46,057 nucleotides of DNA from Bacteroidota bacterium (GCA_014860565.1 JACZJN010000203.1:1-46057), one strand, 5' to 3'. Shown: positions 4,046 to 46,014, counted from the stretch's first letter. Translations and numbers: made by a program. The notes: a model not told the origin generated them from the letters alone.

Positions 4046-4156
4046 GTGCGCTCTGCAAGAGCCTCCACCCATGATCCTCCGAGGTTGCTTACGCGACGGA
4101 CGAAGCTTACTTTTCAGAATACTCGGTCTTATTATATCATAATCCCGGTGATCTGC

Positions 4157-5359
4157 ATGCTCACGCGCGTTCTTCCGATACTTGCCCTTCTTCTGTATTT
4201 CATTCAAAGCGCACAGCCCTGCTCCTCCCAGTCTGATGACGGTGAATTCAATCGCATTCTGCGAGAAGCCGCCGCACGTATCGATAGCGTGAACACAATA
4301 CGTTTGTCCATCGAGAGTCATTTCACGAGGGAAGGCGAAGCAGGACCTATTGCGTCGAAATATTCGATGAGCGCCGAAAGAGCAGACTCTCTCTGGACCG
4401 GCTGCAAGGTCTTCGGTACGACAACGGACGGTGACTGCGTTTTATTTGATGGCGTACGTCTTCTCGAAGGACGTCCTGCATCCGGTCGGATGACATCGTA
4501 CGCGGCAGCGCGTCAGCCGCAGCACCGCATCGCTGTTGTACTGAATGGCTGGGACCTCGCCCCCATTCCGATGAATAACACGTTGATGCGTCAGATCCTC
4601 AATGATGAGCATATCACGGAAAGAGTAATTTCCGCTGGTACATTGGGGCCAGATTCAGTGCTCATTCTTGCATGCGTAAGCTCCATCGGAGAGGGCATGA
4701 TAGAAACATTCACCGAGTGGCAGTTGCGCACATCCGACCTGATGCCTCTGAAAGTAACCCAACTCTATAAAATGGCAGAAATGCAGCAGTGGTCTAATGA
4801 AATCTACATAAAGGCGATTCTCGTCGATCCCGAGCTTGAGCCAGGACTCTTCTCCGGAGCGACGCTGCCGAAGAACATCGCTATTACGGAAGCACCAAAA
4901 CCCACGATCGACGGTCCAACACTGCTGAAGAAGGGAGACGCAGCCCCTGAGTTCGAAGCTGATGCTCTTCAAGGGGGATCAGTCAAGCTTTCTGATTGTA
5001 GAGGGAAAGTCGTTTTTCTTGATTTTTTCTATGTAGATTGCTTTCCTTGCCACCGCGCACTCCCCACTCTGGTGGAGCTGGCCAAGGAATTCCGCGACCA
5101 GGGTATCGTATTTCTTGGAATTGATTCTTTCGATGATCTGGGCAGCAGAAAACTGCACAAACTCATCGATTCCATGGGGATCAAATATCCTGTGTTGCTC
5201 ACGAACAAAGTCGTCGACCGGCTGTACGGCGTCGGGGGCTACCCCACGGCAATCATTATTGACCGTGAAGGTAAGATCAGCTACGCCGATTCTGGCTTCG
5301 ACAAGGAGTTTACACCCCAAGAGTGGCGCGAGGAGATCTTACGAGCTATTGAGCGGTGA
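4157..5359 (+). CDS. Exported TlpA/ResA-like thiol-disulfide oxidoreductase
   Basis: A 400-residue periplasmic protein in two parts. The ATG at 4157 is preferred to the frame opening at 4046 because it begins directly with a signal peptide (MLTRVLPILALLLYF). Residues about 25-250 resemble the LolA/MucB-type beta fold that binds lipid or sensor partners; this is inferred from pattern only. Residues about 258-400 are an AhpC/TSA-type thioredoxin domain, with GKVVFLDFFYVDCFPC (the redox pair is Cys295 and Cys298), the GVGGYPTAIIID cis-proline segment, and GIDSFDD. The usual WCxxC tryptophan is replaced by Asp. Such fusions are common in Bacteroidota, where the partner proteins are usually unknown. 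The gene follows the T9SS protein gene by about 110 bp and may be read with it. Confidence 0.8.
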   Translation: MLTRVLPILALLLYFIQSAQPCSSQSDDGEFNRILREAAARIDSVNTIRLSIESHFTREGEAGPIASKYSMSAERADSLWTGCKVFGTTTDGDCVLFDGVRLLEGRPASGRMTSYAAARQPQHRIAVVLNGWDLAPIPMNNTLMRQILNDEHITERVISAGTLGPDSVLILACVSSIGEGMIETFTEWQLRTSDLMPLKVTQLYKMAEMQQWSNEIYIKAILVDPELEPGLFSGATLPKNIAITEAPKPTIDGPTLLKKGDAAPEFEADALQGGSVKLSDCRGKVVFLDFFYVDCFPCHRALPTLVELAKEFRDQGIVFLGIDSFDDLGSRKLHKLIDSMGIKYPVLLTNKVVDRLYGVGGYPTAIIIDREGKISYADSGFDKEFTPQEWREEILRAIER

Positions 5360-24662: not shown

Positions 24663-24830
24663 GGTTTGCTACCAAGAGTATGACGGATATAGTGCACGAT
24701 AAACTACAAGTCGCATGCATGTTTGTCAATCCATCCGGTCAGAATGGAGGGACGCGAAGCTGCCCATTCTTGCATCCGTTCCGGCGGTGAAGTAGTTTCC
24801 GGCACGTGCAATTCTTCAAAAGGTCCCGGA

Positions 24831-27464
24831 ATGCTCAATCGCCTTTTCCTCCCACTGTTTCTGTTCGTCATTGTATACAGCACCAGTGCCCAGACGTGGA
24901 AGGCCCGCGTCGTGACCGACCGATGGGGCGTCACGCATGCCATCGGCGTCGGCGAAGATAGCGAGCAGCTCAAGCTTCAGGCACAGGCGGCCTTTCATGC
25001 GGCGGGATATGCCGAAGCCGGGCAGCGGCTGATGCAGATGGTGCTGGCACGGCTGTCTGTCCAGGGTCGGCTGGCAGAGGTGTTCGGGAACAGCTTCCTC
25101 GATCATGACAAGCGGATGCGGACGCTCGGTCTGTACCTGCATGCGCAACAGGTCACTCCCGCACTCCCTGATTCCGTTCGCATTCTCCTCGACATGTATG
25201 CGAGCGGAGTGAATTACTTCGTCAGCGAACATCGCGCGGAGGTTTCCACGGTGGAGAGCGTGCTCGGCATCCCGTTCGATGCGTGGACTGCCGCTGATGC
25301 CGTGGCGTGCTTCTACCGCATCTCTGAGTATTTTGACCGCGGCTGGACGAACGAAGTGCAGGCCCTGCGAAAATTCGAGACCATGCTCGCGACGATGACA
25401 CGCGAAGAAGCGATCGCACAGTTGGAAGCCGCCAACCGGCAGGTGGACGACGCGGCTGCGATCGTGAGTCAAGACGAATACAACCGCTATGAGACGGAGT
25501 ATCAGAAACTGCTCAGCGGCATCGCACCGACATCCGGCGGAGCGTCGCTGAAAAAAGGCGCGGCGGACGAACCATGGGAGCCGCCGAAAATGAGTCACAA
25601 CTGGGTCGTGGGTCCTGCGAAATCGAGCACGGGGTATCCCATTCTCGAATCCGATCCGCAGATAACGGTGCAGTCGCCGGCGACATGGTACGAAACGCAT
25701 ATCTCCGGTGGTCCGTTCAACGTGCGCGGCATCTCCATGCCCGGCACGCCGGTCATGCTGCTGGGCTTCAATGAGCACGTTGCATGGGGACTCACCGCCC
25801 TGGGTTCCGACAACGCCGACCTCTTCCAGGAAGAATTGCGGCCAGGAACGCGAAACGAGTACAAGTGGAAAGGCGGTTGGGAGACGATGACGGAACGCAC
25901 GGAGGTGATCAAGGTGAAAGGCGCCCGCGACGTCACGATCAATGTCATGGCGACGCGGCATGGCCCGGTCGTCAATGACCTCGTCACCGGAGTCCGCGCA
26001 GGTGAAATTTTCGCGCTGCACTGGCTCGTGCTCGAAGAAGATGCCACGACTATCACGGGACTGATGAAAATGATGTCGGCACGTAACTGGCCCGAGTTCG
26101 CCGAAGGCGTCTCGCTGTATCAGTCCCCGGGCGTCCACCTCATTTACGCGGACGTAAAAAAAACCATCGCGTATTATACCATGGCGCGCATTCCACTGCG
26201 TGTCCACAATGCGGGCATCCCCTATCGCGGAGGGGACGGTGACGAGGAATGGCTGGGCGTGGTACCCTTCGACGAGATGCCACGGATGCTCAATCCCGTC
26301 GCGGGATATATCAGCACGGCGAACAATGCGCCTGTGGGTTCGTGGTATCCCTACGCCGTGGGCGGCGGTCTCGGCGACAACGCGCGCAGCTGGCGACTGA
26401 AGGAACTGATGGAAGAGACCGACATCTTTTCCCCCGACGATTTCCTGAACGTGCATCGCGACATGGTCGAACCCATCGCACGCGATTTCGTTCGCTACGC
26501 CATCATGGCGGTGGACGAGAACCCGGATGCGGAAGCAGACGCCAAGGCCGCCGCCGATTCGCTGCGGACCTGGGATTACACGCAGAACACGACGTGGTCC
26601 GTCTATCGCCTCACGTCAACTATCGGCGTGGTCATCAAGCGGACCCTGCGCGGCACGCCGCTTGAATCCCGCTATCTCGGCAGCGATGCCGGTCTGATTC
26701 AGCTCTTCCGCGACCTCGAGGCATACGAAACCACGCAAGGGGGACTCATACCCGATCCGGATATCCGCGCATGGCTGATCGCCCAGCTGGCGGAAGTGTA
26801 CCGGCGCAGTGGCATTGCAGATCCGGGCACACGTCCGCTCATCGTGCAGCACAGCATGCCGTGGCAGGATAATCTTGAGAAATTCGGTTCGCTGAACCGG
26901 AGCTTCGACCAGCAGTCGGGACCACTCACCTGCGGCGTGGTGGCGACCATCTGGTCGCAGTTGGGGAACAGTTACTCGCAGATCGTCGATCTTTCGTTGG
27001 TGGATTCCTCGCTCAGCGTTCTTCCCCCGGGCAATTCGGAAATCCCGACCAGCGCGCATTTCGGCGATATGATCCCGCTGTGGGAACAGGGCGGCATGCA
27101 TCCCGCGCCGCTGACCTGGACTGCGGTGGCGCCATACGAAGAGAACCGCGAAGAGTGGTTCTTCGCGGAGGTCTCCGTCGGGGCCGAGAATGCAGCCCCC
27201 GACGCATTTCGCATCACGAATGTCTGGCCGAATCCCGGGTCCGGGATATTCACCGTTTCCTGCTCAGGTGTTACATCCGATGCAGTGGATCTGATTGTCC
27301 GCGACATCCTTGGCCGGGAGATCAGCCGTTCGCGCCCCGCTGTCCGCCCGGGCAGCACTGTGCTGCAGTGGACACCGCCTTCCGGACTGCCAGCCGGTAT
27401 GTACCATGTCACCGTGCACGACGGAAAAACCCGAGCCACGGTGAAAGTCATGTATCAACCCTAG
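24831..27464 (+). CDS. Penicillin-acylase-family Ntn hydrolase with T9SS tail
   Basis: An 877-residue secreted hydrolase of the penicillin amidase family, which cleaves amide bonds of beta-lactams, N-acyl-homoserine lactones or other acyl amides. The signal peptide (LFLPLFLFVIVYSTSAQ) is followed by the alpha chain (VVTDRWGVTHAIG, AAFHAAGYAEAGQRL). The autocatalytic cleavage point is at MSHNWVVGPAKSSTG, making Ser255 the N-terminal nucleophile. Supporting blocks follow (SDPQITVQSPATWYE, TRHGPVV, ISTANNAP). The last 85 residues (VWPNPGSGIFTVS, DILGREISR, LPAGMYHVTV) are a T9SS sorting domain, so the enzyme works outside the cell. The ATG at 24831 has AAAAGG ahead of it. The substrate cannot be predicted from sequence. 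Confidence 0.88.
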   Translation: MLNRLFLPLFLFVIVYSTSAQTWKARVVTDRWGVTHAIGVGEDSEQLKLQAQAAFHAAGYAEAGQRLMQMVLARLSVQGRLAEVFGNSFLDHDKRMRTLGLYLHAQQVTPALPDSVRILLDMYASGVNYFVSEHRAEVSTVESVLGIPFDAWTAADAVACFYRISEYFDRGWTNEVQALRKFETMLATMTREEAIAQLEAANRQVDDAAAIVSQDEYNRYETEYQKLLSGIAPTSGGASLKKGAADEPWEPPKMSHNWVVGPAKSSTGYPILESDPQITVQSPATWYETHISGGPFNVRGISMPGTPVMLLGFNEHVAWGLTALGSDNADLFQEELRPGTRNEYKWKGGWETMTERTEVIKVKGARDVTINVMATRHGPVVNDLVTGVRAGEIFALHWLVLEEDATTITGLMKMMSARNWPEFAEGVSLYQSPGVHLIYADVKKTIAYYTMARIPLRVHNAGIPYRGGDGDEEWLGVVPFDEMPRMLNPVAGYISTANNAPVGSWYPYAVGGGLGDNARSWRLKELMEETDIFSPDDFLNVHRDMVEPIARDFVRYAIMAVDENPDAEADAKAAADSLRTWDYTQNTTWSVYRLTSTIGVVIKRTLRGTPLESRYLGSDAGLIQLFRDLEAYETTQGGLIPDPDIRAWLIAQLAEVYRRSGIADPGTRPLIVQHSMPWQDNLEKFGSLNRSFDQQSGPLTCGVVATIWSQLGNSYSQIVDLSLVDSSLSVLPPGNSEIPTSAHFGDMIPLWEQGGMHPAPLTWTAVAPYEENREEWFFAEVSVGAENAAPDAFRITNVWPNPGSGIFTVSCSGVTSDAVDLIVRDILGREISRSRPAVRPGSTVLQWTPPSGLPAGMYHVTVHDGKTRATVKVMYQP

Positions 27465-29789: not shown

Positions 29790-30899
29790 TCACGGCACCC
29801 AGCGCAGGGTCGCGCTCATGGCGACAGGGTCGGTGTAGTTCAGCGCGTCACGCTCCAGGTCGTCTGTGCGCGTGAATTCGCTCCGCGCGTAATCGAACTG
29901 GATATCCAATCGCTGACCGAGATCGACGAATTCGCCCACGGGAATGATGACACCAAAGCCGTAGCGAAGAGTCGTCGGCACTTCCCACTTTGCAGCGGTG
30001 AGCTGTTCCTCATCCTCGCCGCCAACGCTGAACATCAGCATTTCGGCAACCGTGAACTCCAGCGCTGCAGAGTATTTCGCCCGGGTAAAATCATAGGAAC
30101 TGCCGACAAGTGTCAGATCGGAGGCCAACATGATGTGCAATGCGTCCCGCTCAAGCAGTGTTCCGACGGGCGCCCTCCAGATATAGGCAATGCCCGAGCG
30201 GAGGTACTGATGCAAGTGCTCAGTGAAAGTCCAACTGTCCCAGACAATAGCGCTCCCCTGGACGTTCTGCAGATTGATCCCGTAATTGAATTGGTCCGAT
30301 TTGTCGGAGAAGAACAGACCGGTATGGCGTCCGAACACGGATAGTCCCAAATCGATCGTATTTTTCGTCCCGAAGCGATACCCGTCCTCTCGGCTCGGTC
30401 CATCGCTTGTGCGTTCTGCCGAGTAATTGTAGAGGGATGCCCCCACGGAAAACAGGTGTCCGACCTTGACGGCAACGTGCGCGGTAGTCAACCGGGAATC
30501 CCACCGCGTCGGAGGATGATACGCGGTATCCATGTTCGCCCATACTTCCGCCTGCTGAAAATCGACACGCGAATGGGTTACGGCAATCGTCGTTCCCCAG
30601 GATTCGATATGTCCCGCTGCGGCAGCATTGTAGATATTTTCGAAGTTATATCGAAAAAGGAGTGCACCGGTATTCGAAGAGAAGGTCCCGGCGAAACCGG
30701 ACTGAAACGCCAGTCCCGCCGGATTGTGCTGCACGGCCGCCAATCCCCGCGCGACCCCGGTATAGCTGCTCGCGAGACGAATGGACTCCGCGTACCGCGG
30801 TGCATCGAATTCGACGAACGACTGGGAGATGGCCGTATTCCCCACGAACAGGAGCAGAATCGCAACGGTGTATACCAGCCTCACCATGCGTGCATTCAT
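29790..30899 (-). CDS. PorV/PorQ-like outer-membrane beta-barrel
   Basis: A 369-residue outer-membrane protein. AAAGGAG lies five bases before the ATG at 30899, which gives a signal peptide (VYTVAILLLFVGNTAISQ). The opening ASSYTGVARGLAAVQHNPAGLAFQ contains the NPAGLA block typical of the FadL-like PorV/PorQ family; PorV shuttles T9SS cargo to the surface attachment machinery. The rest alternates strands and turns and ends in an aromatic-rich strand (SATLRWVP) suited to barrel assembly. It lies 10 bp after the 1301-residue T9SS cargo gene and its ribosome-binding site overlaps that gene's stop codon, so the two are coupled. It is probably the cargo's dedicated outer-membrane partner. Confidence 0.8.
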   Translation of the reverse strand: MNARMVRLVYTVAILLLFVGNTAISQSFVEFDAPRYAESIRLASSYTGVARGLAAVQHNPAGLAFQSGFAGTFSSNTGALLFRYNFENIYNAAAAGHIESWGTTIAVTHSRVDFQQAEVWANMDTAYHPPTRWDSRLTTAHVAVKVGHLFSVGASLYNYSAERTSDGPSREDGYRFGTKNTIDLGLSVFGRHTGLFFSDKSDQFNYGINLQNVQGSAIVWDSWTFTEHLHQYLRSGIAYIWRAPVGTLLERDALHIMLASDLTLVGSSYDFTRAKYSAALEFTVAEMLMFSVGGEDEEQLTAAKWEVPTTLRYGFGVIIPVGEFVDLGQRLDIQFDYARSEFTRTDDLERDALNYTDPVAMSATLRWVP

Positions 30900-30909
30900 G
30901 TCTACTCCT

Positions 30910-33900
30910 TTAATGGGAAATGATGAAGGAACGTGTGCGCCGGACTCCGGCCCCCTGCACTGAAAGCAGATAGATACCTGATGCGAATCCGGTTGTGGAA
31001 AGTGGAACGATGCGCCGCGCTGCGGCGTCGGCCGGGAGCGAAATCCGCCACCGTTCGCGGCCGAGTAAATCGTGCACAGTGACGAGCAGCGATTGTGCGG
31101 GCGGTGCGACGATCTCCGCGATGAGCATGCCACCCGCTCCGATGGGATTCGGATGTATGGATCTGATATATGGGACATCGGGAGACGGGACGTTTTCGAC
31201 ACCGAGTACGCCGCTGATGTGATACGAGATACGCACCGTGCCGGGATGCAGCGCCGCGGGAGCGAGCACGAGGCTGTCGACATGCTGCCCCGGAACCAGC
31301 ATGCTGCTGTTCGGTCCCGCTTGCGTGCGGACGTGTCCCCGACCCCACGCGGGCTGAACGTCGAACCACGGCGGCGCCGCGGCAATGCTCCATAGTGGAT
31401 CCACTCCACCGCCGGTCCAGACCTGCAGTTCGCGCGAAGGAGGAGGCGCCTCCCCGCGTTCGCCTTCAAAACGCAGAAGCCAGGGCGTGAGAACAATGCC
31501 TGCCGGAGCCTCGTCGGCAGCGCCGATACCATGTGCGCAGGAAACGTCGAGAAGGCTGTCGCCGCTGCGGACCTCCCAGCGCACAACCCATTCGCCCGCA
31601 TACGCTTGTGCATCGTTTATCTCAAGCAGCCATTCGGCGGACCACTGTTCGCCGGGCTGCAGCACGGGAACGATGCGCACGCTGTCTTCCCCAGCCGCAC
31701 AGCGCAGCATCGGGGGCAGAATGATCGCGATGTCGCATGAGGGCATGACGACTTCACCGGTATTGGCCAGGGTATACTGCAGCTGCAGCGGATTCGGGAT
31801 GAAGCGTCCGTAATACGGGTCGTACCACACGGAGTCGTGTCCCGCCGTCGCGCACGCGTACGTGTAGCGTCCCCCTGCAGCCAGGACATGCAGCGTATGC
31901 GCGCAGCGCGTGGCTTCACTGTCATCCGCACGAAGCGCGATGGCCTCGAACAACAGATCATGCGCCTTCGCCTGCCGTGGAACTTCGAGATGCCACGTGA
32001 CCGTGTCGCTTTGTCCCGGTTCGAGCGATGCGAGCGGCCGACGAAGCGATTCGCTGACGCCGACACTGTCGGGCGGACGTAGCCACGCTGTCGCCAGTTC
32101 CTGCCGCAGATCGCCCGTGTTGGTGAAGACGGCGGATATCTTCACGGTATCATCCAGCGCCGGCGTTTTTCCCGGAACAAGCGTGTCGGACGCGATCCAC
32201 ATGCATGCGAGCTGCGCGCGTCGCGGCATCAGCCGAATCACCGCCGTGCCGGTGTGCGTCGCGCCGTCCGAATCCGTGATGTACCGGATCCGGAGCGTAT
32301 CGGTCACCTCCGAGTCGATACCGGGCATTGCTGCCAGACGCCAGTCAGTGATGCGGCGAAAGCGCTCCCGTACATAGAACGCGCCACGATGGAGCGTCTC
32401 ACCATCGGCGGCGCGCAAATGCGGGGCGCTCGAGAGATCGAGAACCAGGTCGGAATAAAACCGCACGGTATCCGTCTCGTTCTCGACACGCAGGTGTACC
32501 GCGATAGTATCGAATTGCGTCATTCCGTCGCCGCGCAATAGCAGTGTCGCGGGCGCCTGAAGGTGATGAAAGGAACCCGATACGCCCGGCACGAACAGTT
32601 CCGCGACGCATGAGCGCTGTTCATACCCGAAGGTGTCGACGATCACGACCTGAGCGTAAACCTCCCGGTCGTACTGCCAGGTCTGCGCATGTATTGTCCA
32701 CCCGAGTTCGACGGTGTCGCGCGGCGTGATCGGTGCGATTCCTCGCCACATGGTGTCGGGTGCGATGGGTGAAAGACCGCTGTTGGGAGGGAAACGCAAT
32801 GCCAGTCCCTGAAGCGGTGCGTCGTTGTCGGAGTGGTTGATGATACGGACGCGCAGCGTCACTGAATCCGTTGCCAGTGTGGTTCTGTTCGCATCGGACT
32901 CGAACAGATTCATCTGATCCACCGAACAGCGTACGTCTGCGTACGTGAGATCCGTATAAATGACCTTGATGCTCTTGACGACCGAAGCGCCCATGGGACA
33001 GGGGTCCTCGGTACGCGCGGAGACGACGAGATACACATCCCCGCGCGGATAGATGCGATCGAAATCCGTCAGTACTGTCCAGTCACCTCCCACATCGCCG
33101 AGAGGTGAAAGAGCCGCATATTGCGTATCCGTACCTGCGCCAAACCCGTCGAGTTCAATGCCCCCTTCAACGTGGAGATGCATTTGCACTGTGCCGGTGG
33201 TGTCCGTCGCGGATTGGTTGCGGACGCGCAGCGATATCGGGAAGCGCGCGGGCTTGACAAGCTTGCGGGGAACGTCGATCAGCAGCGTATCCGGTGCGGT
33301 GAGTTCCAGCGCGATCTTCCGCATGCTGCTGTCTCCGAGGGCGGGACGCCCGCAGAGAGAACCCATCGCAAACGCGGCGATAAAGGCATCGCTGTTGTAT
33401 CTCACGTTCCACGGACCCGGCAATCCCGGAGTCGGAGGCAGACCCGACGTATCGGCGACGCCGCTGAGAAAGAGCGCGTTTCCGTCGAGGCACAGCTGAC
33501 CCTGGTCCGACTGCGGTCCTCTGATCCGCGTCGTCATTCGCACCGCGCCGGCGCGTGTATCGAACGCGGAGACGAAAGTACCGCCCGACGTCATCAGGGG
33601 GTTCGTCAGAATAAGTTCCTGTCCCGACACCCACCCGGTACACAGGACGAGCCCGCAGCCGTCCACCTCGATGTCGGAAATCCTGATGCCGTTTGGGTAC
33701 CCCAGCAGACTCACGCGGCGGAGCGTGCCGTCTGGCTCGATGACACCGAGGAGCGTGGAACCGTAGCTCCCCATGAAGGGCATTATCTGCAGCGTGTCAG
33801 CGTGTGGAAATGGAGATGATGACGTCGTGCCGATGAAATACATGGTACCGGCGCTGTCGAGCTGCAGCAGATTGCCTGCCGATGTGGATTTGTCAATGGA

Positions 33901-34815
33901 CTCGTATCTGGCGCCACCGAGATAACTTGAGAACAGAATATGTTTGGCGTCCGGATCCAGGCGCATGAGAATGAAATCCCTTGCACCCGCGATGGTGTCC
34001 TGCAGGGCATGGACGGCCGGGAAGCCGCCCGAGCCCGAAGAATAACCGATCAAAGCCACGCCGCTGCTGTTCACCGCGAGATCCTGGAAATCGTCATCGT
34101 CCGGTCCCCCGAGAAAGGTCGCGTATTCGAGACGATAATCCGAAGCGGAAAAGCGCATCAGGTAGCCGTCCCTCTTCCCCTGCTTGACGGGGAACAGGGC
34201 GTCCGGCGTCGTCATGGGTGGCGTTCCCGTTGTGCTGGAAAGCAGCCAGATCTCTCCCTCCGGACTCACCTCGAAATCCGTGATGCCGTTCAGACCGGAC
34301 ATCGGCACATACGACGCGTAGGCGACATTCCCCTGGCAATCCAATACCAGGAAGCCATAGTGTGAACGCGTGGAGTCGGCGGCATCGGCGGTCAACAGGG
34401 TATCAAGGCTCAGACCATTATAACAATCGACCAGCAACACCACAGCGTCGTTGGCGCCGATCGCGGCGTCCACCAGCCGAAGGTTTGAGCCGAAACGACG
34501 GCTGTAGAGCAGCGTCGCACCCTCACGGTCATGCTTGGCAATGAAGACCGAATAGTCGTTTTTCATGAACACGGGTCCGGCGGGCAGCTGCGGGAAATCG
34601 ATGGACGAAGTCGTCCCGCAGAGTACGACGTTCCCTGCCCTGTCCACCAATGGTATAGGTGTGCTTTCCCCTGCCGACCCGCCATGGTAGTAGGTCAGAT
34701 ACAAATGCGCGTCAAACGGTGCCGGTACGCCCTGCGCGAGCAGTCCCCGTGAAGCAGACAGCGCCAGAAACAGCATCAGCAGCAGAATCGAATGAAAACT
34801 CCTTCGCCACGGCAC
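30910..34815 (-). CDS. Giant T9SS cargo protein with SBBP-type propeller
   Basis: A 1301-residue surface or secreted protein. It starts at GTG 34815 with GGAGG six bases ahead; the signal peptide is SILLLMLFLALSASRGLLAQ. Residues about 35-490 form a beta-propeller of SBBP-like blades (ATFLGGPDDDDFQDLAVNSS, SSYLGGARYESIDK). Residues about 500-1200 are a chain of CARDB/Ig-like beta sandwiches whose sequences speak of repeated strands (LRVRIINHSDND, VHLRVENETDT, ISAVFTNTGD). The end (IHPNPIGAGGMLIA, DLLGRERWR, FASGIYLLSVQ) is a type A sorting domain. It is the fourth gene of a tightly packed run that begins with a headgroup-synthesis trio and ends with the PorV/PorQ-like barrel. Confidence 0.85.
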   Translation of the reverse strand: MPWRRSFHSILLLMLFLALSASRGLLAQGVPAPFDAHLYLTYYHGGSAGESTPIPLVDRAGNVVLCGTTSSIDFPQLPAGPVFMKNDYSVFIAKHDREGATLLYSRRFGSNLRLVDAAIGANDAVVLLVDCYNGLSLDTLLTADAADSTRSHYGFLVLDCQGNVAYASYVPMSGLNGITDFEVSPEGEIWLLSSTTGTPPMTTPDALFPVKQGKRDGYLMRFSASDYRLEYATFLGGPDDDDFQDLAVNSSGVALIGYSSGSGGFPAVHALQDTIAGARDFILMRLDPDAKHILFSSYLGGARYESIDKSTSAGNLLQLDSAGTMYFIGTTSSSPFPHADTLQIMPFMGSYGSTLLGVIEPDGTLRRVSLLGYPNGIRISDIEVDGCGLVLCTGWVSGQELILTNPLMTSGGTFVSAFDTRAGAVRMTTRIRGPQSDQGQLCLDGNALFLSGVADTSGLPPTPGLPGPWNVRYNSDAFIAAFAMGSLCGRPALGDSSMRKIALELTAPDTLLIDVPRKLVKPARFPISLRVRNQSATDTTGTVQMHLHVEGGIELDGFGAGTDTQYAALSPLGDVGGDWTVLTDFDRIYPRGDVYLVVSARTEDPCPMGASVVKSIKVIYTDLTYADVRCSVDQMNLFESDANRTTLATDSVTLRVRIINHSDNDAPLQGLALRFPPNSGLSPIAPDTMWRGIAPITPRDTVELGWTIHAQTWQYDREVYAQVVIVDTFGYEQRSCVAELFVPGVSGSFHHLQAPATLLLRGDGMTQFDTIAVHLRVENETDTVRFYSDLVLDLSSAPHLRAADGETLHRGAFYVRERFRRITDWRLAAMPGIDSEVTDTLRIRYITDSDGATHTGTAVIRLMPRRAQLACMWIASDTLVPGKTPALDDTVKISAVFTNTGDLRQELATAWLRPPDSVGVSESLRRPLASLEPGQSDTVTWHLEVPRQAKAHDLLFEAIALRADDSEATRCAHTLHVLAAGGRYTYACATAGHDSVWYDPYYGRFIPNPLQLQYTLANTGEVVMPSCDIAIILPPMLRCAAGEDSVRIVPVLQPGEQWSAEWLLEINDAQAYAGEWVVRWEVRSGDSLLDVSCAHGIGAADEAPAGIVLTPWLLRFEGERGEAPPPSRELQVWTGGGVDPLWSIAAAPPWFDVQPAWGRGHVRTQAGPNSSMLVPGQHVDSLVLAPAALHPGTVRISYHISGVLGVENVPSPDVPYIRSIHPNPIGAGGMLIAEIVAPPAQSLLVTVHDLLGRERWRISLPADAAARRIVPLSTTGFASGIYLLSVQGAGVRRTRSFIISH

Positions 34816-34839
34816 AAACCACCTCCGTTCCTAGGGTGT

Positions 34840-35577
34840 TTAGCAATCCAGCAAGGGGATGAGTTCCTGTTCGGCACGGCGTAAATCCTCGACGGTGTCG
34901 AGCTCCATGCAGGGATACGCGCTGATGTCCACGGCGTACAGCGCGCGACCTTCACGAATGACCTCCTCGAAGGCGGCTTCGTAGAAAATGTCCACCCTTC
35001 CGTCGGCGACGATCATGCGTTCGAGCACTTCGTACAGATGCGCGGTGAATGGCGCGGAGAAGCGCTCGATGCCGATGGATTCCCCGACCGCATCGGCGAC
35101 GGACACGACCTTGCTGATTTCGCGAATCCTTCCATCCCCGTCAAGGCGTACCTTGATTTCTTCCTCGCCGACATTGATCGCACAATTGAGGGCAATACAA
35201 TCCGCATACGGTGATGCGAGCAGTGCACCGACGATGCGGTGGTCGAACAGGATGTCGCTGTCGAGCAGCAGCATGTCTCCCCCTGCGACGGCATCCTTCG
35301 CGAGCCACAGCGAATAAATGTTGTTTGTCGCGTCATACACCGGGTTATGGATGAATACGGCATCGAGTCCGGGCCATTGATTGGCGACGAAATCCTCGAT
35401 CTGTTCGCGCAGATAGCCGGTGACGAAGACGAAGCGGCCGATACCATTGGCTAGCAGGTTGTCTACCGTGCGCTGGAGTATGGTTTTCTCCCCCAGCGTG
35501 AGCAGACACTTGGGTGTCGTGTCGGTCAGAGGACGCATACGCGAGGCGACACCGGCGGCGAGGATGAGTGCGGTCAT
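34840..35577 (-). CDS. LicC-type sugar/choline-phosphate nucleotidyltransferase
   Basis: A 245-residue cytoplasmic enzyme that should join a nucleotide, probably CMP, to a small phosphorylated alcohol, amine or sugar. The N-terminal signature ALILAAGVASRMRPLT and PKCLL is the nucleotide-binding loop and lysine motif. TNNIYSLWLAKD and DMLLLDSDILFD provide the metal-binding Asp residues. The TNNIYSLW block is characteristic of the LicC/PntC-like group (phosphocholine or aminoethylphosphonate cytidylyltransferases). The ATG at 35577 overlaps the stop of the CDP-alcohol phosphotransferase gene by four bases (ATGA). The next gene begins 24 bp downstream. The substrate is not fixed by sequence. Confidence 0.83.
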   Translation of the reverse strand: MTALILAAGVASRMRPLTDTTPKCLLTLGEKTILQRTVDNLLANGIGRFVFVTGYLREQIEDFVANQWPGLDAVFIHNPVYDATNNIYSLWLAKDAVAGGDMLLLDSDILFDHRIVGALLASPYADCIALNCAINVGEEEIKVRLDGDGRIREISKVVSVADAVGESIGIERFSAPFTAHLYEVLERMIVADGRVDIFYEAAFEEVIREGRALYAVDISAYPCMELDTVEDLRRAEQELIPLLDC

Positions 35578-36455
35578 GGGCGTGCCGTGTTTTTCAGTCG
35601 ATGATTGATGATGCTCTGGAATGGGTACAGGACCAGGGCCCAGAGATTCGCCGCGATGACAAGTCCGTAGATGTAGAGGTCCATGCGGTTGAGAAGGGCG
35701 CATACCACAAGGAAGGTGATCTGCGTCGTCGGTCCAAGCAACAGCCAGAGCCGGATGATCACGCGATTGAGGCGATAATATTTCTTCGGATCCGCCTCCG
35801 CCAGATGGCTGTGTTCTCTGCTGCCGGACGTAATGCGGCTTTGCAGGCGCGAATATCCGACGTAGATGCCGATGAGAATGCGATCGAAGTAGTGGTCCCC
35901 TTGCCTGCGCATCTCCTCGCGCTCGGCTTCGAAGGCCTGAAGATCCTCCTCGAACGTGCTCACACGCCGCAGCACGACGTCGAGAAAGCGGTTTCGGTAG
36001 TAATCGACGATGATCGCATGCACGGCGTTGCTGAGTCCCGCGGCCACGAGCATCAGCCACCAGAATCCCGGATCGTCGGACGCATTGGCGAAGCCGATGC
36101 CGATGCCGATGTACACGGTGATGTCGACGACGTAATCAGAGACGCCGTCGAGAATGCGTCCGGTGCGCGTCCCGTTTTTCTTGAGCCGCGCGAGTTGCCC
36201 GTCGCTGCAGTCAAGCACATCGTAAATGATAAGAAGGACGGCGGCGGCAACGAGGGTGGTCGGAGTGCCGACAGCGAAGGCCGCCCCGGCGATGATGCCG
36301 AGAATCATCGAGACGACGGTGATCTGGTTCGGCGTGATGTCGGTGGCGTAGATCGCCTTGACGAAGAGAAATGCGAGGGGACGGTAGAAGACGAGATCGA
36401 AAAACTCTTCCACTTCCCGCATTTTCAGGGAGGATTGGTACTCTTCACGCAGCAT
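35574..36455 (-). CDS. CDP-alcohol phosphotransferase
   Basis: A 293-residue integral membrane enzyme that transfers a phospho-alcohol from a CDP-activated donor to a lipid or polyol acceptor. The full CDP-AP signature, D-x2-DG-x2-AR-x8-G-x3-D-x3-D, is present at residues 82-107 (DCSDGQLAR, then G, then RILDGVSD), with all four metal-binding aspartates. About six hydrophobic helices surround it. A soluble insert between helices (about 150-205) has many charged residues. The ATG overlaps the aminotransferase stop (TGATG), and an alternative GTG lies one codon upstream. Its 3' end overlaps the nucleotidyltransferase gene, so the three are one translational unit. Confidence 0.88.
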   Translation of the reverse strand: MLREEYQSSLKMREVEEFFDLVFYRPLAFLFVKAIYATDITPNQITVVSMILGIIAGAAFAVGTPTTLVAAAVLLIIYDVLDCSDGQLARLKKNGTRTGRILDGVSDYVVDITVYIGIGIGFANASDDPGFWWLMLVAAGLSNAVHAIIVDYYRNRFLDVVLRRVSTFEEDLQAFEAEREEMRRQGDHYFDRILIGIYVGYSRLQSRITSGSREHSHLAEADPKKYYRLNRVIIRLWLLLGPTTQITFLVVCALLNRMDLYIYGLVIAANLWALVLYPFQSIINHRLKNTARP

Positions 36456-37504
36456 CACGCAGGCACCCGTTCCTGAACAAAGGCACGAATCGCGTCAGCG
36501 AGGATACGGTTCTGTTCCTGCGTTCCGAGAGTGATGCGCATATGTGTGTGCAGTTCGTCTTCGTTCATGAACTTGACGATCAGTCCGCGCGCGGTAAGAT
36601 CCTGCTTCAGCGGAGCGCAAAGCTCCTCCGGCATTTTCACCAGCACGAAATTCGCAACGGATTCGAACACTGTGAATCCCGGCAGCGCCCCGAGTGTGCG
36701 GCGGAACATGTCCCGATCCTCTTCCATCTTCGCGGTGATGTTCGTGTAATACTCGATGGAATCGAGCGCCGCCAGGGCGATCAGCTCCGAGAGTCTGCTG
36801 TATCCAAGATAGCGCGCACTGAAATGTTCAAGCGCGGTGAGATTGCTCCCCATCACTGCGTAGCCGATGCGTACTCCGGCAAGGGCGTAGTACTTGGAGA
36901 ATGTCCGCACGATAAGGAGATTCGGGAACTCCGCACGCAGATCCCCGACGAGGTTGTTGTCCTGCGAGGCGTACGACCAGTATGCCTGATCGAGTACGAT
37001 GATTCCTTCGCGCATATGCCGCAGCACCCGCAGCAGGTCATCATGCGCAAGCGCGTTGCCCGTGGGATTGTTGGGTGAACTGATCAGCACGACTGCGGGT
37101 TTGTGCTCGTCATAGATGCGAAGCATGGCGGGGATATCGTATGAGTAGGATTCCCCGCCTTCGACGATCGGATACTCCACCGACACGCCATTCACTTCCT
37201 CGGCGATGGTCTTGTAATACCACCACGAGTGCGAGGGGATCATGATGCGATCACCCGCGCCGAGATAGCAGTGCACGGTTTGCTTGAGAATGTCCTCCGC
37301 TCCGTAGCCCAGGAGAATGTCGCGTTCCGCGACTCCGAAATCGCCGGCGAGGCGCTCGGAAAGGATGGATTTCACCCCGCGAGAAAAATCGCGGGAATAG
37401 ACGCTCATTTGTTCGATGCCGACGCCGCGGAGCACGTCGAAACATGCGGGAGCGGGACCGTACTGATTTTCATTCCGGTCGAAATAAAGCAGTTGAGATG
37501 ACAC
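36455..37504 (-). CDS. HisC/CobD-like PLP-dependent aminotransferase or decarboxylase
   Basis: A 349-residue fold-type I PLP enzyme. SSPNNPTGN (the Asn contacting PLP), LDQAYWSYA (the Asp pairing with the pyridine nitrogen), and TFSKYYALAGVRIGY (the Schiff-base Lys in SK) are visible. The family includes histidinol-phosphate aminotransferase and CobD-type amino-acid-phosphate decarboxylases, which differ by few residues. It does not lie among histidine or cobalamin genes here, so a role in making an aminoalcohol phosphate or amino-sugar precursor for its partners is more likely. The GTG at 37504 has AGGAG six bases ahead. It opens the five-gene minus-strand run. Confidence 0.8.
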   Translation of the reverse strand: MSSQLLYFDRNENQYGPAPACFDVLRGVGIEQMSVYSRDFSRGVKSILSERLAGDFGVAERDILLGYGAEDILKQTVHCYLGAGDRIMIPSHSWWYYKTIAEEVNGVSVEYPIVEGGESYSYDIPAMLRIYDEHKPAVVLISSPNNPTGNALAHDDLLRVLRHMREGIIVLDQAYWSYASQDNNLVGDLRAEFPNLLIVRTFSKYYALAGVRIGYAVMGSNLTALEHFSARYLGYSRLSELIALAALDSIEYYTNITAKMEEDRDMFRRTLGALPGFTVFESVANFVLVKMPEELCAPLKQDLTARGLIVKFMNEDELHTHMRITLGTQEQNRILADAIRAFVQERVPA

Positions 37505-40011: not shown

Positions 40012-43000
40012 TCATCCTTCCCGGATCGCCTCTCCGGGCGTCATGCCGAATTCCTCGCGGAAGCAGGTCGTGAAATATGACTGGCTTCCGAACCCGACGC
40101 CGTAGGCGATCTCGGCGATGCTTCCTGCGCCCTGTTCGAGCATCTCCTTGGCGCGCCGGAGACGGATCGTACGAATGAATCGGGCCGGGGACATATCGGT
40201 GAGCGCCTTGAGTTTGCGCTGGAAATTGCTGCGGCTCATGCCGATTTCCTCGAACAGTGCGGCGGGATTTAGATCTTCGTCGGCCAGATGCTCGTCGACG
40301 AGCGTGATGACACGGTCGAGGAATTCCTGATCCTTCGATACATACTGCCGTGGATCCAGACGGAAGTTTTCGAGCGAGGCAAATCGCGCTGCCTGCGCGC
40401 GCCGCACGGTGATCAGGTTGCGCACCCGCAGCTGCAGTTCCTCCGGATCGAAGGGCTTTGTCAGATAATCGTTCGCACCCTCCTCCAGGCCCGTCATCCG
40501 GCTGCGGTCGTCACCACGTGCGGTCAGGAGAATGACCGGGATGTGGCTGGTTTCGGCATCCGCACGAATCGCGCGGCATAGAGCGAAGCCGTCCATCACC
40601 GGCATCATCACGTCGCTGATGATCAGGTCCGGAGCCTCGGCGATAGCGGACGCCACGCCCTGCTCTCCGTCGGCGGCCTCGATCACGCGATAGGAGGAAG
40701 TGAGAATGTCGTGCATGTATTCGCGCAGATCCGCATGATCGTCCACCAGCAGCACCAGGGGTAAATCCTCCCGGCGTCCGCCTCTCTCACTCTCGACGGA
40801 GGACGCTGAGTCGAGACGTTTCCGTCCCTCCGCGGCTGCCGGGGCGAGAATTTCTTCCTGAGGTTCCGCTGCGTTCATGGAGTCGATGCCCATTCCCGTA
40901 GGAATCGTCACGGTAAATGCGCTCCCTTCTCCTTCGTGGCTGTGGACGCTGATTTCGCCTCCATGCATGGCGACGAGTTCGCGGACGAGCGCGAGTCCAA
41001 TCCCTGTGCCGCCGCTCGTTTGCTCATGCGCCCGGTAGAAGCGGTCGAAGACCAGCGCCAGCCGGTCGGCGGGAATGCCGCAACCGGTGTCGCTTACTTC
41101 GAGGGACATCATCGCTCCCCGCCCAGGAGCATCCTTCATGGACACCGTCACCGTCACGGCGCCGAGGGAATCGGTGAAGCGGAATGCGTTGGAGAGCAGA
41201 TTGACGAGGATATGCTCGACGGCCTCGCGGTCGTATGGCAGCACACAGCGCTCCACGCGCGTGCTGAATCGCAGAAGAATGCCGCGCTCCTCGGCATGCG
41301 AGGCGAACGAGGCCGTGATCCCACGCAGCAATGGGACGATGTCTTCTTCGCGCAGCGACAATTCCATTTTCCCCGCATCGATGCGCGAGAGATCGAGGAT
41401 CTGGTTGACGAGCTGAAGCAGTCGGCGCGCGTGCACAGTGATGACCCCGGATTTTTTCAGAAGCCATGGATCCTCGGAACGTTCGCTGATCTGTGCGGCA
41501 GGGCCAAGGATCAGTGTGAGCGGCGTCCGGAACTCATGCGAGATGTTCGAAAAGAATCGGGATTTCAACTGATCGATTTCCTGCAGCTGCTCGGCCTGAA
41601 CCCGTTCGCGTTCGAGCTGCTCCTGCAGACGGACCCGGTTGACGCGGATGCGCAGCAGCAGCCAGAACAAACCAAGAATCACCAGCGCATACAGCGCGTA
41701 GGCCCAGGTGGTGCGCCAGAGCGGCGGTGTGATGCGGATGATCAGCGACGCTCCCTCCTCGTTCCACACGCCGGCGGGGTTTGCCGCGGCGACGTGGAAG
41801 ACGTACTCGCCCGGACTCATGTTCGTAAATGTGGCCGTTCGTGAATTCCCCGCATCGATCCACTGGTCCTGATGCCCTTCGAGATTGTAGCGGTAGCGGT
41901 TTCTCGCGGGCGAGGTGAAGTCGAGCGCCGCGAATGATATGGTGATCATGTTTTGATCGTACGGCAGCTCGATGCGACGCGCGATCGAGAGCGGACGCTG
42001 CAGCGGACTGCCCGCTGCGCCGACCTGCACGGGCGTATTCCAGATACGCAATTCCGTGAGGACCACGGGCGGAGGCTTGCGTTGTGCGGTAGGTGGCGAC
42101 GAGGGACGCACCGTAAAGCCGTTCGTTCCACCGAAATACATCGTACCGTCGGAAGACAGCAATGTGGCGCCCGGATTGAACTGGATGTTAATGAGTCCGT
42201 CGCGGGCATCGAAGCGGCGTATGCGGCCACTGCGCAAATCAAGTGCGCTCAGCCCTCCGTGCGTAGTGATCCACAGCTGATGCCGACGGTCGAGAAAAAG
42301 TCCGCAAACAGCGTCGCTCGACAACCCCTGCCGCACCGTGTAGCGCCGCCACTTTCCGCTGATCGGATCGAGCTGGTACAGTCCCGCACCCAGCGTGCCG
42401 ATCCAGAGCTGTCCGTCATCGCCCTTGATGATGGAGGTGACATGTTGTCGGAACGGTGCACCGGGCGTCATCACAGCGCTGACGAAATTGCGGATGATCA
42501 TTCCATCGGGAAGAATGCGGTACAGACCGCCCACGCTTCCCACCCACAGCACACCGCCGTCGTGATACAGGGCACGCACCTGATGCTGCAGCAGGGTGAG
42601 GGAATCGCTTATATAGCGCGTGAATTGTCCCGTCGCGGGATCGATGCGATTGACGCCGTAGTTGCTGCCGATCCAGATGCGTCCGCGATCGTCCTGCAGG
42701 AGCGTGTGAATATCGTTATGCGTGAGTCCCTTCGGATCTTCGAAGCGGGCGTGGTACACCGTCCATTTCCCTGTCGTAGGGTCATAGCGATTCAGTCCCC
42801 CGCCGTAGGTTCCCGCCCAGAGCATGCCGCTGCGATCCTCGAGCAGCGAATAGATGCGCTTCTCGCTGGGCCCTTTCCCGCGTACCGGAGTGAAGGCATT
42901 GCTCCGCGGATTGAAACGGCAGATGCCTCCGCCGAAGGTACCGACCCAGATGTTGCCATCGCGGCTCTCCGAGAGAGCGCTCACGTCGTCGTGCACGAGA

Positions 43001-44088
43001 CTGCCCGCGGCAAGCGTGTGACGGAAATGCTGGAATTCAAGGTTGCGCGAGGTCATGACGCTTATGCCGCGCTGCGTGCCCACCCAGATATTGCCGCCGC
43101 GGTCCTCCCGTATCACATACACCATGTTGTCGGCGATGCTGTACGGATCGAGCGGATCGTGATAATAATGGGTGAAGCGGTCGCTGACCGGATCGTACAG
43201 ATCGAGCCCTGCGCCAGTCCCGATCCAGATCAGCCCCTTGCTGTCCTCGAAGATATCGTACACGTTGCGGTCGCTGATGCCGGCGTTGTCACCGGGAGCG
43301 ACGGGATAACGGATGAACGACGAGGTTTCGGGCACGAGCCGCACGAGCCCTTCGGAGGTAGCGAACCAGAATCCCCCACGCGAATCACGCAGCGCGTCGA
43401 GAATGTTGGGACAGCCGATCAGATCGATGTTCGTTCCGAGAAAATCGCGCGTGGCGCAAGAGGTCTGCGGATCGAGGATGGCGGCGCCCGCGCCGACACT
43501 GGTGAGCAGGAAACGCCCGTCGGCGAGCGGGAGCACGGTGCGCTGGTAGATGCCCCAGCCGCAGGGATAGGGCTGCCGGTCGCCGTACAGATGGGAAAAC
43601 GTCCCGCTGGTGGAATCGAAGCGATCGAGTCCGCCGCCGCTCGTGGCGACCCAGAGATTCTGCTCCAGGTCCTCAAAAATATAGCTGACACGATCCTGGG
43701 ACAGCGTGCTCGAGTCTTGCGGATTATTGGTGAATCGCTGGAAGCGGTCGGTGCGCGCGTCGTAGCGGTTGAGTCCGCCTCCCTCGGTGCCGATCCACAT
43801 GATGCCGTTGTGATCCTCGAACAGCGCCCATATGTTGGTGTTGGACAGCGTCGTGTTGTCTTCCGGATTGGAGCGGAACACCGTCATGTTGTAGCCGTCC
43901 CACCGCCCGAGTCCCGCCCGTGTCCCGATCCACATATACCCCTGCCGGTCCTGCAGCAGGCAGATGACGCGGCTGTACGGCAGCCCCTGCTCGAGACCGA
44001 TGCGGTCGAAGCGCGCCTGCGCCCGCACGGACACGGGCAGCGCTCCCAGCACCCCAAGGGCGAGAAATATCAGAAGGAATCGTCTCAC
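40012..44088 (-). CDS. Hybrid two-component system sensor-regulator (HTCS)
   Basis: A 1358-residue one-protein signalling system. The signal peptide (FLLIFLALGVLGALPVSVRAQ) is followed by about fourteen Reg_prop propeller repeats (LLQDRQGYMWIGTRAGLGRW, LLQDDRGRIWIGSNYGVNR; residues 30-690). Next come a Y_Y_Y domain (RYRYNLEGHQDQW, to about 790), a membrane helix near 796 (YALVILGLFWLLLRI), the kinase with His in ISHEFRTPLT (near 848), ATPase boxes (NLLSNAFRFT, DTGCGI, GGTGIGLALV), a receiver with Asp in IISDVMMPVMDG (near 1158), and a C-terminal AraC helix-turn-helix (AEIAYGVGFGSQSYFTTCFR). In Bacteroidota such proteins sense glycan fragments in the periplasm and regulate neighbouring genes. 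It starts at GTG 44088 with GGAGG three bases ahead. Confidence 0.93.
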   Translation of the reverse strand: MRRFLLIFLALGVLGALPVSVRAQARFDRIGLEQGLPYSRVICLLQDRQGYMWIGTRAGLGRWDGYNMTVFRSNPEDNTTLSNTNIWALFEDHNGIMWIGTEGGGLNRYDARTDRFQRFTNNPQDSSTLSQDRVSYIFEDLEQNLWVATSGGGLDRFDSTSGTFSHLYGDRQPYPCGWGIYQRTVLPLADGRFLLTSVGAGAAILDPQTSCATRDFLGTNIDLIGCPNILDALRDSRGGFWFATSEGLVRLVPETSSFIRYPVAPGDNAGISDRNVYDIFEDSKGLIWIGTGAGLDLYDPVSDRFTHYYHDPLDPYSIADNMVYVIREDRGGNIWVGTQRGISVMTSRNLEFQHFRHTLAAGSLVHDDVSALSESRDGNIWVGTFGGGICRFNPRSNAFTPVRGKGPSEKRIYSLLEDRSGMLWAGTYGGGLNRYDPTTGKWTVYHARFEDPKGLTHNDIHTLLQDDRGRIWIGSNYGVNRIDPATGQFTRYISDSLTLLQHQVRALYHDGGVLWVGSVGGLYRILPDGMIIRNFVSAVMTPGAPFRQHVTSIIKGDDGQLWIGTLGAGLYQLDPISGKWRRYTVRQGLSSDAVCGLFLDRRHQLWITTHGGLSALDLRSGRIRRFDARDGLINIQFNPGATLLSSDGTMYFGGTNGFTVRPSSPPTAQRKPPPVVLTELRIWNTPVQVGAAGSPLQRPLSIARRIELPYDQNMITISFAALDFTSPARNRYRYNLEGHQDQWIDAGNSRTATFTNMSPGEYVFHVAAANPAGVWNEEGASLIIRITPPLWRTTWAYALYALVILGLFWLLLRIRVNRVRLQEQLERERVQAEQLQEIDQLKSRFFSNISHEFRTPLTLILGPAAQISERSEDPWLLKKSGVITVHARRLLQLVNQILDLSRIDAGKMELSLREEDIVPLLRGITASFASHAEERGILLRFSTRVERCVLPYDREAVEHILVNLLSNAFRFTDSLGAVTVTVSMKDAPGRGAMMSLEVSDTGCGIPADRLALVFDRFYRAHEQTSGGTGIGLALVRELVAMHGGEISVHSHEGEGSAFTVTIPTGMGIDSMNAAEPQEEILAPAAAEGRKRLDSASSVESERGGRREDLPLVLLVDDHADLREYMHDILTSSYRVIEAADGEQGVASAIAEAPDLIISDVMMPVMDGFALCRAIRADAETSHIPVILLTARGDDRSRMTGLEEGANDYLTKPFDPEELQLRVRNLITVRRAQAARFASLENFRLDPRQYVSKDQEFLDRVITLVDEHLADEDLNPAALFEEIGMSRSNFQRKLKALTDMSPARFIRTIRLRRAKEMLEQGAGSIAEIAYGVGFGSQSYFTTCFREEFGMTPGEAIREG

Positions 44089-44145
44089 CGGCCTCCAGCC
44101 ACGAATCGGACTTGTCGGAATGAAATTACGGCATTGCTCACTGGA

Positions 44146-46014
44146 TCACAACGGGCGCACGGACTCCAGCACCCCGTTACCCGATATCCGGACCCGGTTT
44201 TCTTCTATACCAAAAGCCGGCGCCGCGTCGCCGAAGGCGATTTCCGTCACCAGCATGGCAGGGAATGCGGCCTCGCATTCCACTACGAGACTCCGCCGTG
44301 GCAGTTTTTCACCGAAGGCGGGATAATACTCGGTTTCGAGAATGCCAGCGCGTGCGCCAGCATGAAGACGCAGTTTCGCGCGGCTCTCGCCACGAGACGC
44401 GGCGAATTCCATCGGTCCGTCTTGGTGCAGATCTACCTCCGGATGAAAATGGAGAAAGCTGCGCATCCGATGCGTCCCGCTTCCGTGCAGCCAGTCCACG
44501 ATCAGCAGCACGTCCTCGCAGAGCAGCATCGCCCGTTCGTGCAGCAGGTCTCCCTGCAGCCGCGTATAGCCGTCATGCATGCCGCGGAGGAGACGGGAAC
44601 CGTCGCGTTGCTCCGAAGACAGATGACGTACCTTCGCACGGCGACCGACACGGAAGCTTTTCCACACCTCCGACTGCTCGGCGCCGTCGATTTCGATGGT
44701 ATTGTGCGCGGCGGTGCAGCGCGCGTACGTGCGCTCCGGTGACTCGCGGTAATGATACACACCGGTGTCGGTGATGAAGCGCGCACCATCGAGAGAAAGC
44801 TCGAAACTCAGCGTATCGCAATGCGCGTGCCCCGGCTGATAATCCGGACCGACGAGTCCGGCATCCATCACCAGCCAGATGCGCTCCGTTTCCGCCGTCA
44901 GCAATCCGGAGACACGCCGCGGATCAACCCCTGCTCCCGCCTCCTGCATCCCGCTTCCCGCCTCCTGCTTCCCGCTTCCCGCCTCCTGCTTCCCGCTTCC
45001 TGCTTCCTGCAGTTCCGTCGCGAGACGAATGCCGCGTGCAAGCACCTCTGCCGTGCGCAGGAAAAAACTGCCGGTGGAATCGTTGAAGAACGGGATTTCT
45101 CCGTCGGGATGGCGCATATGCGTGAGGAATTCCGTCATGCGCGCGACGGCACTTGTGAGTCGCTCCGGCACCGTGCTGCCACAGAGCAGGATTGCCTCCG
45201 CCATGTCGAGGACGTCGTTCATCATCGAGACATGGTACATGGGACTCCGCTCGAAGTGGCAGCCATCGTCAAGAATCTGCTCTTCGAGTTCACGATCAAG
45301 TAGCTTCATGCCGATGCGCCTCGCCTGCGCTCCGGCGGGCGTATCGAGATACAGTCCGGCAAATACCAGCGCCTTGATATTACGCAGCAGGTGATTCGCC
45401 ATCGTGCCCTTCTCCAGATTGCGCTGGAGCACGCGGGTCATGCGTTCGATCCCCTCCGCGAGACGCATGAGACGGACGTCCGTTTCGTTGATGCCCGCCG
45501 CGAGCAGCAGTGCGTGCAGACGCACCCAGCTTTCAATGCGAATCGAAAGCACGTACGGGTGCCATGCGCTGTGCCGCGCTCCCGCGGCATGCAGCGGGAA
45601 CACTTCGCTCCATTCCACGATGAAATCCAGCACCGCCCCTGCCAGACGTGTGCGTTTGTGTGCGGACTCCGCCTCGGCTTCCAGCAGGGCGAGCAGATAG
45701 TCGTGATACCCGAAGTGAAACTGCCAGAGCAGGGGCTTTCGTGCCACCGCCGCACGCATCGCGGATGGAGCCACAGGCAGTGTCTCGACGTCGAGGAGAA
45801 AGCTGAATCGCCGTGCCGCGAGATCGATGTCCTCACAGTGGTACCGGCCGGAAAGCGGCGGAACAAGCGAGACGGGTACGTCGCCGATCTTCCGGTCGTA
45901 AAGCTTCGATGCCAGCCCCGCTTTCTCGATCGCAGCGATCGCAGCGCCTTTCACCGTTCGATGCACGCGCCAGTAGATCATCGACATCCGCAGATGGCGC
46001 AGGGAGTGCAGCAC
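44146..46014 (-). CDS. Heparinase II/III-family protein with in-frame 7-bp repeats
   Basis: At least 622 residues. The N-terminal alpha/alpha toroid (LAEGIERMTRVLQRNLEKG, MANHLLRNIKALVFAGLYL) and the C-terminal beta domain with PGHAHCDTLSFELSLDG, AHNTIEIDGAEQSEVW and the DTGVYHYRESPERTYAR block match the heparinase II/III family of polysaccharide lyases. These cleave uronic-acid-containing glycans or occur in exopolysaccharide loci. Between the two domains (residues about 336-359) ten 7-bp repeats encode three QEAGSGK-like units. GTG 46014 is a weak start with no ribosome-binding site, and the frame stays open to the window edge, so the true start may be outside. No signal peptide is visible. 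It lies 57 bp upstream of the HTCS gene on the same strand. Confidence 0.8.
   Translation of the reverse strand: MLHSLRHLRMSMIYWRVHRTVKGAAIAAIEKAGLASKLYDRKIGDVPVSLVPPLSGRYHCEDIDLAARRFSFLLDVETLPVAPSAMRAAVARKPLLWQFHFGYHDYLLALLEAEAESAHKRTRLAGAVLDFIVEWSEVFPLHAAGARHSAWHPYVLSIRIESWVRLHALLLAAGINETDVRLMRLAEGIERMTRVLQRNLEKGTMANHLLRNIKALVFAGLYLDTPAGAQARRIGMKLLDRELEEQILDDGCHFERSPMYHVSMMNDVLDMAEAILLCGSTVPERLTSAVARMTEFLTHMRHPDGEIPFFNDSTGSFFLRTAEVLARGIRLATELQEAGSGKQEAGSGKQEAGSGMQEAGAGVDPRRVSGLLTAETERIWLVMDAGLVGPDYQPGHAHCDTLSFELSLDGARFITDTGVYHYRESPERTYARCTAAHNTIEIDGAEQSEVWKSFRVGRRAKVRHLSSEQRDGSRLLRGMHDGYTRLQGDLLHERAMLLCEDVLLIVDWLHGSGTHRMRSFLHFHPEVDLHQDGPMEFAASRGESRAKLRLHAGARAGILETEYYPAFGEKLPRRSLVVECEAAFPAMLVTEIAFGDAAPAFGIEENRVRISGNGVLESVRPL
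44938..45007. repeat. Ten tandem 7-bp repeats inside the heparinase-family gene
   Basis: The heptamers, written on the plus strand, alternate among CGCCTCC, TGCATCC, CGCTTCC and TGCTTCC (consensus YGCHTCC) for exactly ten units. Three units make 21 bases, encoding the seven-residue repeat QEAGSGK on the minus strand. Gain or loss of one unit would shift the frame for the remaining C-terminal 290 or so residues. Confidence 0.92.

Follow-up and report, generated by a model that had tools for sequence, protein, structure and literature searches.

Three putative headgroup-synthesis genes beside a T9SS cargo gene in a Bacteroidota bacterium: probably a module of their own

Three consecutive genes at 34840-37504 of the window, the whole stretch of 46,057 nucleotides of Bacteroidota DNA that was analysed, probably form a module that stands on its own, is spread through the class and makes an amino-alcohol-phosphate headgroup by the logic of the Kennedy and Pnt pathways. 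The trio encodes a PLP enzyme, a CDP-alcohol phosphotransferase and a cytidylyltransferase; the genes for a T9SS cargo protein and an outer-membrane barrel that come next would be its neighbours only. The searches covered the genome of the window (G000) and as many as 395 of its phylum, with a closer set of 61 relatives; no published description of the trio was found in the open-access literature.

All five genes lie on the minus strand between 29790 and 37504: the PLP enzyme comes first, followed by the phosphotransferase, the cytidylyltransferase, the cargo and the barrel (Table 1). The first two genes meet at TGATG, the second and third at ATGA; then come a gap of 24 bp, with a GGAGG, before the cargo, and a gap of 10 bp before the barrel, where an AAGGAG overlaps the stop of the cargo gene. 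The cytidylyltransferase is listed as an ORF of 406 amino acids, which includes an upstream extension: its domain starts from an ATG inside that ORF, at 35577. As far as the sequence goes, the spacing of the five genes in the window is compatible with a single transcript. The initial annotation described five minus-strand genes with this order and these junctions, and all were found as written; its family assignments for the trio and the cargo also hold (TIGR01141/Aminotran_1_2, PF01066, NTP_transf_3 with the LicC structure 1jyk, and TIGR04183). Elsewhere in the window, at 40012-46014 on the minus strand, a hybrid two-component regulator with a propeller and an AraC-type domain adjoins a heparinase II/III-like lyase, and the two resemble a polysaccharide-sensing pair.

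Table 1. The five genes along the minus strand, with positions counted on the window.
Feature	Position	Strand	Length	Remarks
HisC-like fold-type-I PLP enzyme	36455-37504	-	349 aa	GTG start; TIGR01141/Aminotran_1_2
CDP-alcohol phosphotransferase, integral membrane	about 35574-36458	-	293-294 aa	PF01066
LicC/PntC-like CTP:amino-alcohol-phosphate cytidylyltransferase	34840-35577	-	245 aa	NTP_transf_3; predicted activity
T9SS cargo, secreted, type A sorting domain	30910-34815	-	1301 aa	GTG start; TIGR04183
PorV/FadL-superfamily outer-membrane barrel paralogue	29790-30899	-	369 aa	class from homologues and model

The best named family for the PLP enzyme is HisC, and one could take the protein for a plain histidinol-phosphate aminotransferase that joined the operon by chance. 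We give this almost no credence: in a profile search the enzyme scores 213 bits against TIGR01141, under the curated cut-off of 276.55; HisD is found neither in the host genome nor in any of the 15 genomes, among the 61, that carry this PLP subfamily, against 15 of the 46 remaining genomes that do have it; and throughout the class its gene accompanies the other two of the trio. A HisC of histidine synthesis is rejected on its score and on the absence of HisD. Seen on its own, the lack of histidinol dehydrogenase throughout the genomes of family f1 suggests histidine auxotrophy or an unusual pathway.

The lysine K204 of the PLP enzyme, together with Asp172, Tyr175, Arg212 and Arg323, is invariant in 12 relatives. 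The reaction catalysed by HisC converts a keto-phosphate into a 2-amino-alcohol phosphate, and the enzyme of the trio is predicted to form a 2-amino-alcohol-1-phosphate. In Campylobacter jejuni, Cj1436 and Cj1437 produce ethanolamine-phosphate, from serine-phosphate, and serinol-phosphate, which feed a surface polymer (PMC12409886). Because of the HisC chemistry and this precedent, the predicted product of the PLP enzyme is ethanolamine-phosphate or serinol-phosphate. The likeness to the two Campylobacter enzymes, which are candidate precedents for the first step, is one of reaction: unlike what we propose for the trio, the serinol-phosphate of C. jejuni is amidated to the glucuronic acid of the capsule, and neither CDP activation nor a CDP-alcohol phosphotransferase step is described there (PMC12409886).

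The best solved relative of the cytidylyltransferase is LicC (1jyk, 2.6e-21), and the second is PntC (6pd1, 7.2e-13). Its residues R13, K23 and K156, invariant in 14 relatives, align with Arg15, Lys25 and Lys153 of PntC, whose alanine mutants have less than 10% activity (PMC6697681). At the amine site, E200 corresponds to Glu196 of PntC, which contacts the amine (PMC6697681), and D106 to Asp105 of LicC; neither the SK nor the YE position is kept in the phylum's NTP transferases of inositol type. As for the phosphotransferase, the motif D82xxD85G86xxA89R90x8G99xxxD103xxxD107, an instance of DX2DGX2ARX8GX3DX3D, is complete and invariant in 18 sequences. Its AF2 model is helical (pLDDT 86), with AF2299 (4o6m) as the best PDB match; the closest solved relatives are of inositol type or have no known substrate, which counts against the reading proposed here.

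These elements suggest a pathway in three steps. The PLP enzyme would convert phosphoserine into ethanolamine-phosphate, or dihydroxyacetone phosphate into serinol-phosphate; the LicC/PntC-like enzyme, which has the residues for it, would join the amino-alcohol phosphate to CTP; and the phosphotransferase, with its motif and fold, would move the aminoalkyl-phosphate to a lipid alcohol, possibly diacylglycerol or ceramide. Phosphatidylserine decarboxylase (Psd) is present in 57 of the 61 relatives, the host included, which weakens the idea that the trio substitutes for the usual route to PE. Since Psd already provides that route, ordinary PE from the trio would be redundant, and the product may be another headgroup, or may go to another lipid.

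An operon of genome G347 (locus L133, G347:C2, 4526-10130) bears directly on the kind of headgroup. It is a complete 2-aminoethylphosphonate operon that contains a phosphotransferase of the trio type, 38% identical to that of the trio. Its PepM scores 400 bits against TIGR02320 (cut-off 320) and has a C-terminal nucleotidyltransferase-like domain; its phosphonopyruvate decarboxylase (Ppd) scores 406 bits against TIGR03297 (cut-off 312); and a fusion of a PntC-type cytidylyltransferase with a PhnW aminotransferase scores 406 bits against TIGR03301 (cut-off 361). No PLP enzyme of the trio type was found in the G347 genome. In a maximum-likelihood tree, the G347 phosphotransferase is the sister of a 12-row trio clade that contains the window, with less than full support (92/80) and on a long branch (1.19); other trio phosphotransferases branch outside this grouping, which places G347 within the wider trio group. 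From the PepM/Ppd/PntC-PhnW operon and the position in the tree, we infer that in G347 the same phosphotransferase subfamily receives CMP-aminoethylphosphonate.

None of the 12 genomes of family f1 has a PF13714 match for PEP mutase (PepM), and a phosphonate route in the host is rejected on the absence of that enzyme. Since the window family is without PepM, the probable product of the trio is the phosphate analogue, ethanolamine-phosphate or serinol-phosphate, and the HisC-like enzyme and the cytidylyltransferase would occupy, in that family, the place of the PEP-mutase pathway. Genome G044 was considered as a second case of such a swap and left unused: its PF13714 match lies outside any phosphonate context, and its opening sequence is unlike that of PepM. 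Three loci, L049 (G035), L134 (G214) and L135 (G295), each hold two phosphotransferases of different clades, in tandem or flanking the PLP and cytidylyltransferase genes.

The trio is contiguous in 21 genomes. The order of the window is found in G000, G001, G007-G011, G022, G191, G363, G382, G390 and G421, and at loci L033 and L034; a rearranged order is found in G016, G035, G141, G164, G268 and G291. Among the 395 genomes of the phylum, the phosphotransferase is present in 16 of the 17 that have the PLP enzyme, versus 14 of the 378 that do not. The neighbours vary. Four genomes of the same family continue after the trio with a gene for a lipoprotein of about 620 amino acids, identified as an L,D-transpeptidase. 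One genus has the PLP-phosphotransferase pair behind two genes that were read by eye as gap and pgk, and its cytidylyltransferase elsewhere. The apparent gap and pgk genes lie directly upstream of the pair at L043, L044, L045 and L047 (G038, G029, G056 and G047), and, with the same caution on their assignment, hint at a substrate derived from triose-phosphate or phosphoglycerate.

The initial annotation went further and read the five genes as one unit, a dedicated surface-anchoring system: the trio would make a lipid or headgroup to which the cargo is joined, and the barrel would hand the cargo over. The tight same-strand spacing in the window speaks for it, as do the presence of the trio-cargo order in the congener G001 and the resemblance of the barrel model to the barrel chain of a T9SS assembly; we nevertheless consider it very improbable. 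The cargo adjoins the trio in only two of the 21 genomes with a contiguous trio, G000 and G001, and the other 19 are without it. In favour of a link, it is 74% identical between these two species, and their common neighbourhood probably goes back to the ancestor of the genus. G002, another congener, has a cargo that is 50% identical over residues 32-505 and lies directly downstream of a scar of the PLP gene (G002:C103, locus L104, 1756-1950), in which N-terminal residues are joined to residues 190-225, approximately, before a stop; the contig that holds the scar is 3.6 kb long and the genome is a draft, in which the other trio genes were not found. In G001, some 218 bp separate trio and cargo, and within them lies a TTGACA-17-TACTAT site that matches 10 of 12 positions where 0.1 such sites are expected, sigma-70 consensus matches being weak evidence in the phylum of the host; this promoter-like site runs against the claim of a single unit.

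Nor does the cargo itself single out the trio. It belongs to a large family with many paralogues in the genome, mostly at other sites, and its TIGR04183 match, over residues 1220-1299, scores 24.0 bits, just above the cut-off of 23. At least 150 sorting-domain matches were scored in G000, out of 323 candidates, and four of the approximately 25 genes of the window carry such a domain. If 150 to 323 of some 4,300 genes encode cargo, at 1.1 kb per gene and with an even spread, the chance of finding one on a flank is about 7 to 14% per gene. A sorting-domain gene beside the trio is unremarkable because at least 150 such domains are scattered in the genome and four lie in the window. One of them, at 24744-27464 on the plus strand, is a penicillin amidase/PvdQ-like acylase with a C-terminal type A domain, probably secreted or displayed at the surface.

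The last gene, claimed to be a PorV/PorQ-like barrel, has the FadL-like fold that this implies, but it matches no curated PorV or PorQ family. It has no Pfam or NCBIfam match, NF033709, NF033710 and NF033711 included; its homologues L072 and L074 score 53 and 36 bits against NF033709, whose cut-off is 90, and a third homologue, L071, also has a match to it under the cut-off. The AF2 model, of moderate confidence (pLDDT 74.6), has as its top match chain F of 8gl6, a T9SS assembly (E 3e-10), which may be favoured by the PorV sequences included in the model alignment, and the next matches are FadL chains, from 5e-9. The genome has a true PorV on contig C71 (4440-5042, 264 bits, cut-off 250). Judging by the model and by distant sequence similarity, the barrel is a remote PorV/FadL-superfamily paralogue with a FadL-like fold, and not PorV. 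In G001 the pairing of cargo and barrel is not kept: the gene right after the cargo is a homologue of the protein at 4085-5359 of the window, and the barrel is on a separate contig, where 5.9 kb lie between it and the ClC gene, which in the window stands right beside it.

The known mode of T9SS attachment also stands against an anchoring role, since it uses A-LPS, attached by PorU (PMC5445135). The dedicated system is rejected on the comparative evidence, and what is left of the original claim is its first half. The trio as maker of an amino-alcohol-phosphate headgroup is upheld by the conserved catalytic residues and by the relative of its phosphotransferase in a 2-aminoethylphosphonate operon; the trio as servant of the cargo is not, the trio being mostly found without the cargo, which the initial annotation itself had named as a sign of accidental adjacency, the cargo having been kept without the trio in G002, and the relatives of the cargo lying mostly elsewhere. 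The cargo and the barrel are most likely genomic neighbours of the trio rather than functional partners, because most relatives have the trio without them and a close relative keeps the cargo after losing the trio; in the host species, they are possibly on its transcript.

Two other roles for the trio deserve to be weighed. Its product could serve many T9SS cargo or envelope proteins, with no tie to a particular one, and the T9SS core protein SprA is indeed present in 60 of the 61 relatives, including all those that carry the trio. However, genomes that lack the trio have SprA just as often, which leaves no association, and a protein that is nearly universal among the 61 makes co-occurrence with T9SS uninformative as a test; elsewhere, the neighbours include the L,D-transpeptidase lipoprotein and, for the PLP-phosphotransferase pair, the apparent gap-pgk genes, none of them anchoring genes. 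We regard such a general role as improbable, if slightly less so than the dedicated system. Decoration of a surface glycan or lipopolysaccharide, in the manner of the phosphocholine and phosphonate tailoring by Lic and Pnt pathways, in place of a glycerolipid or ceramide, fares somewhat better and is still unlikely. The cytidylyltransferase is of LicC/PntC type, and the LicC and PntC pathways often tailor surface glycans (PMC6697681); on the other hand, the transferase belongs to the CDP-alcohol phosphotransferases, which act on lipid or inositol-phosphate alcohols, and is not a LicD-type enzyme, and no recognised glycan genes accompany the trio.

The gene cluster is real and had been over-read as a system; the trio is probably a variant of a Kennedy/Pnt-type headgroup pathway. 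With the Pnt pathway, which runs through PepM, Ppd and PntC/AEPT, as in Treponema Tde1415 (PMC6697681), it shares an aminotransferase and a PntC/LicC-like cytidylyltransferase whose catalytic residues are the same, and its phosphotransferase subfamily appears in the Pnt-type operon of G347; it differs in that the window genome has no PepM, that the PLP enzyme is HisC-like and not a class V PhnW, and that the predicted product is a phosphate ester and not a phosphonate. The pair formed by a cytidylyltransferase and a CDP-alcohol phosphotransferase is common to the trio, to Kennedy-type pathways and to a putative alternative inositol-lipid cluster of Bacteroides vulgatus, which combines an NTP transferase, a CDP-alcohol phosphatidyltransferase and a HAD protein (PMC9246714); clusters of this inositol type, with paralogous phosphotransferases, are found in G041 and G231 of the same phylum. 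The trio differs from them in having a PLP enzyme where they have an inositol-phosphate synthase, and in a cytidylyltransferase that retains residues for an amino substrate, absent from the inositol type.

As a tentative proposal, which we hold to be less probable than the module itself, this class of Bacteroidota-related bacteria may have a full Kennedy pathway, working de novo, that leads to an undescribed membrane aminophospholipid, for example a serinol-phosphate lipid or one with separately made ethanolamine-phosphate. In the course of evolution, the HisC-like PLP source would be exchangeable for a 2-aminoethylphosphonate pathway that feeds the same phosphotransferase. A subfamily that stands behind either a phosphonate pathway or a PLP enzyme predicts matching phosphono- and phospho-headgroups. 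Where a genome carries 150 sorting domains or more, a place next to a T9SS cargo gene means little, and an operon over-read as an anchoring system becomes a testable lipid pathway, with defined enzymes to assay.
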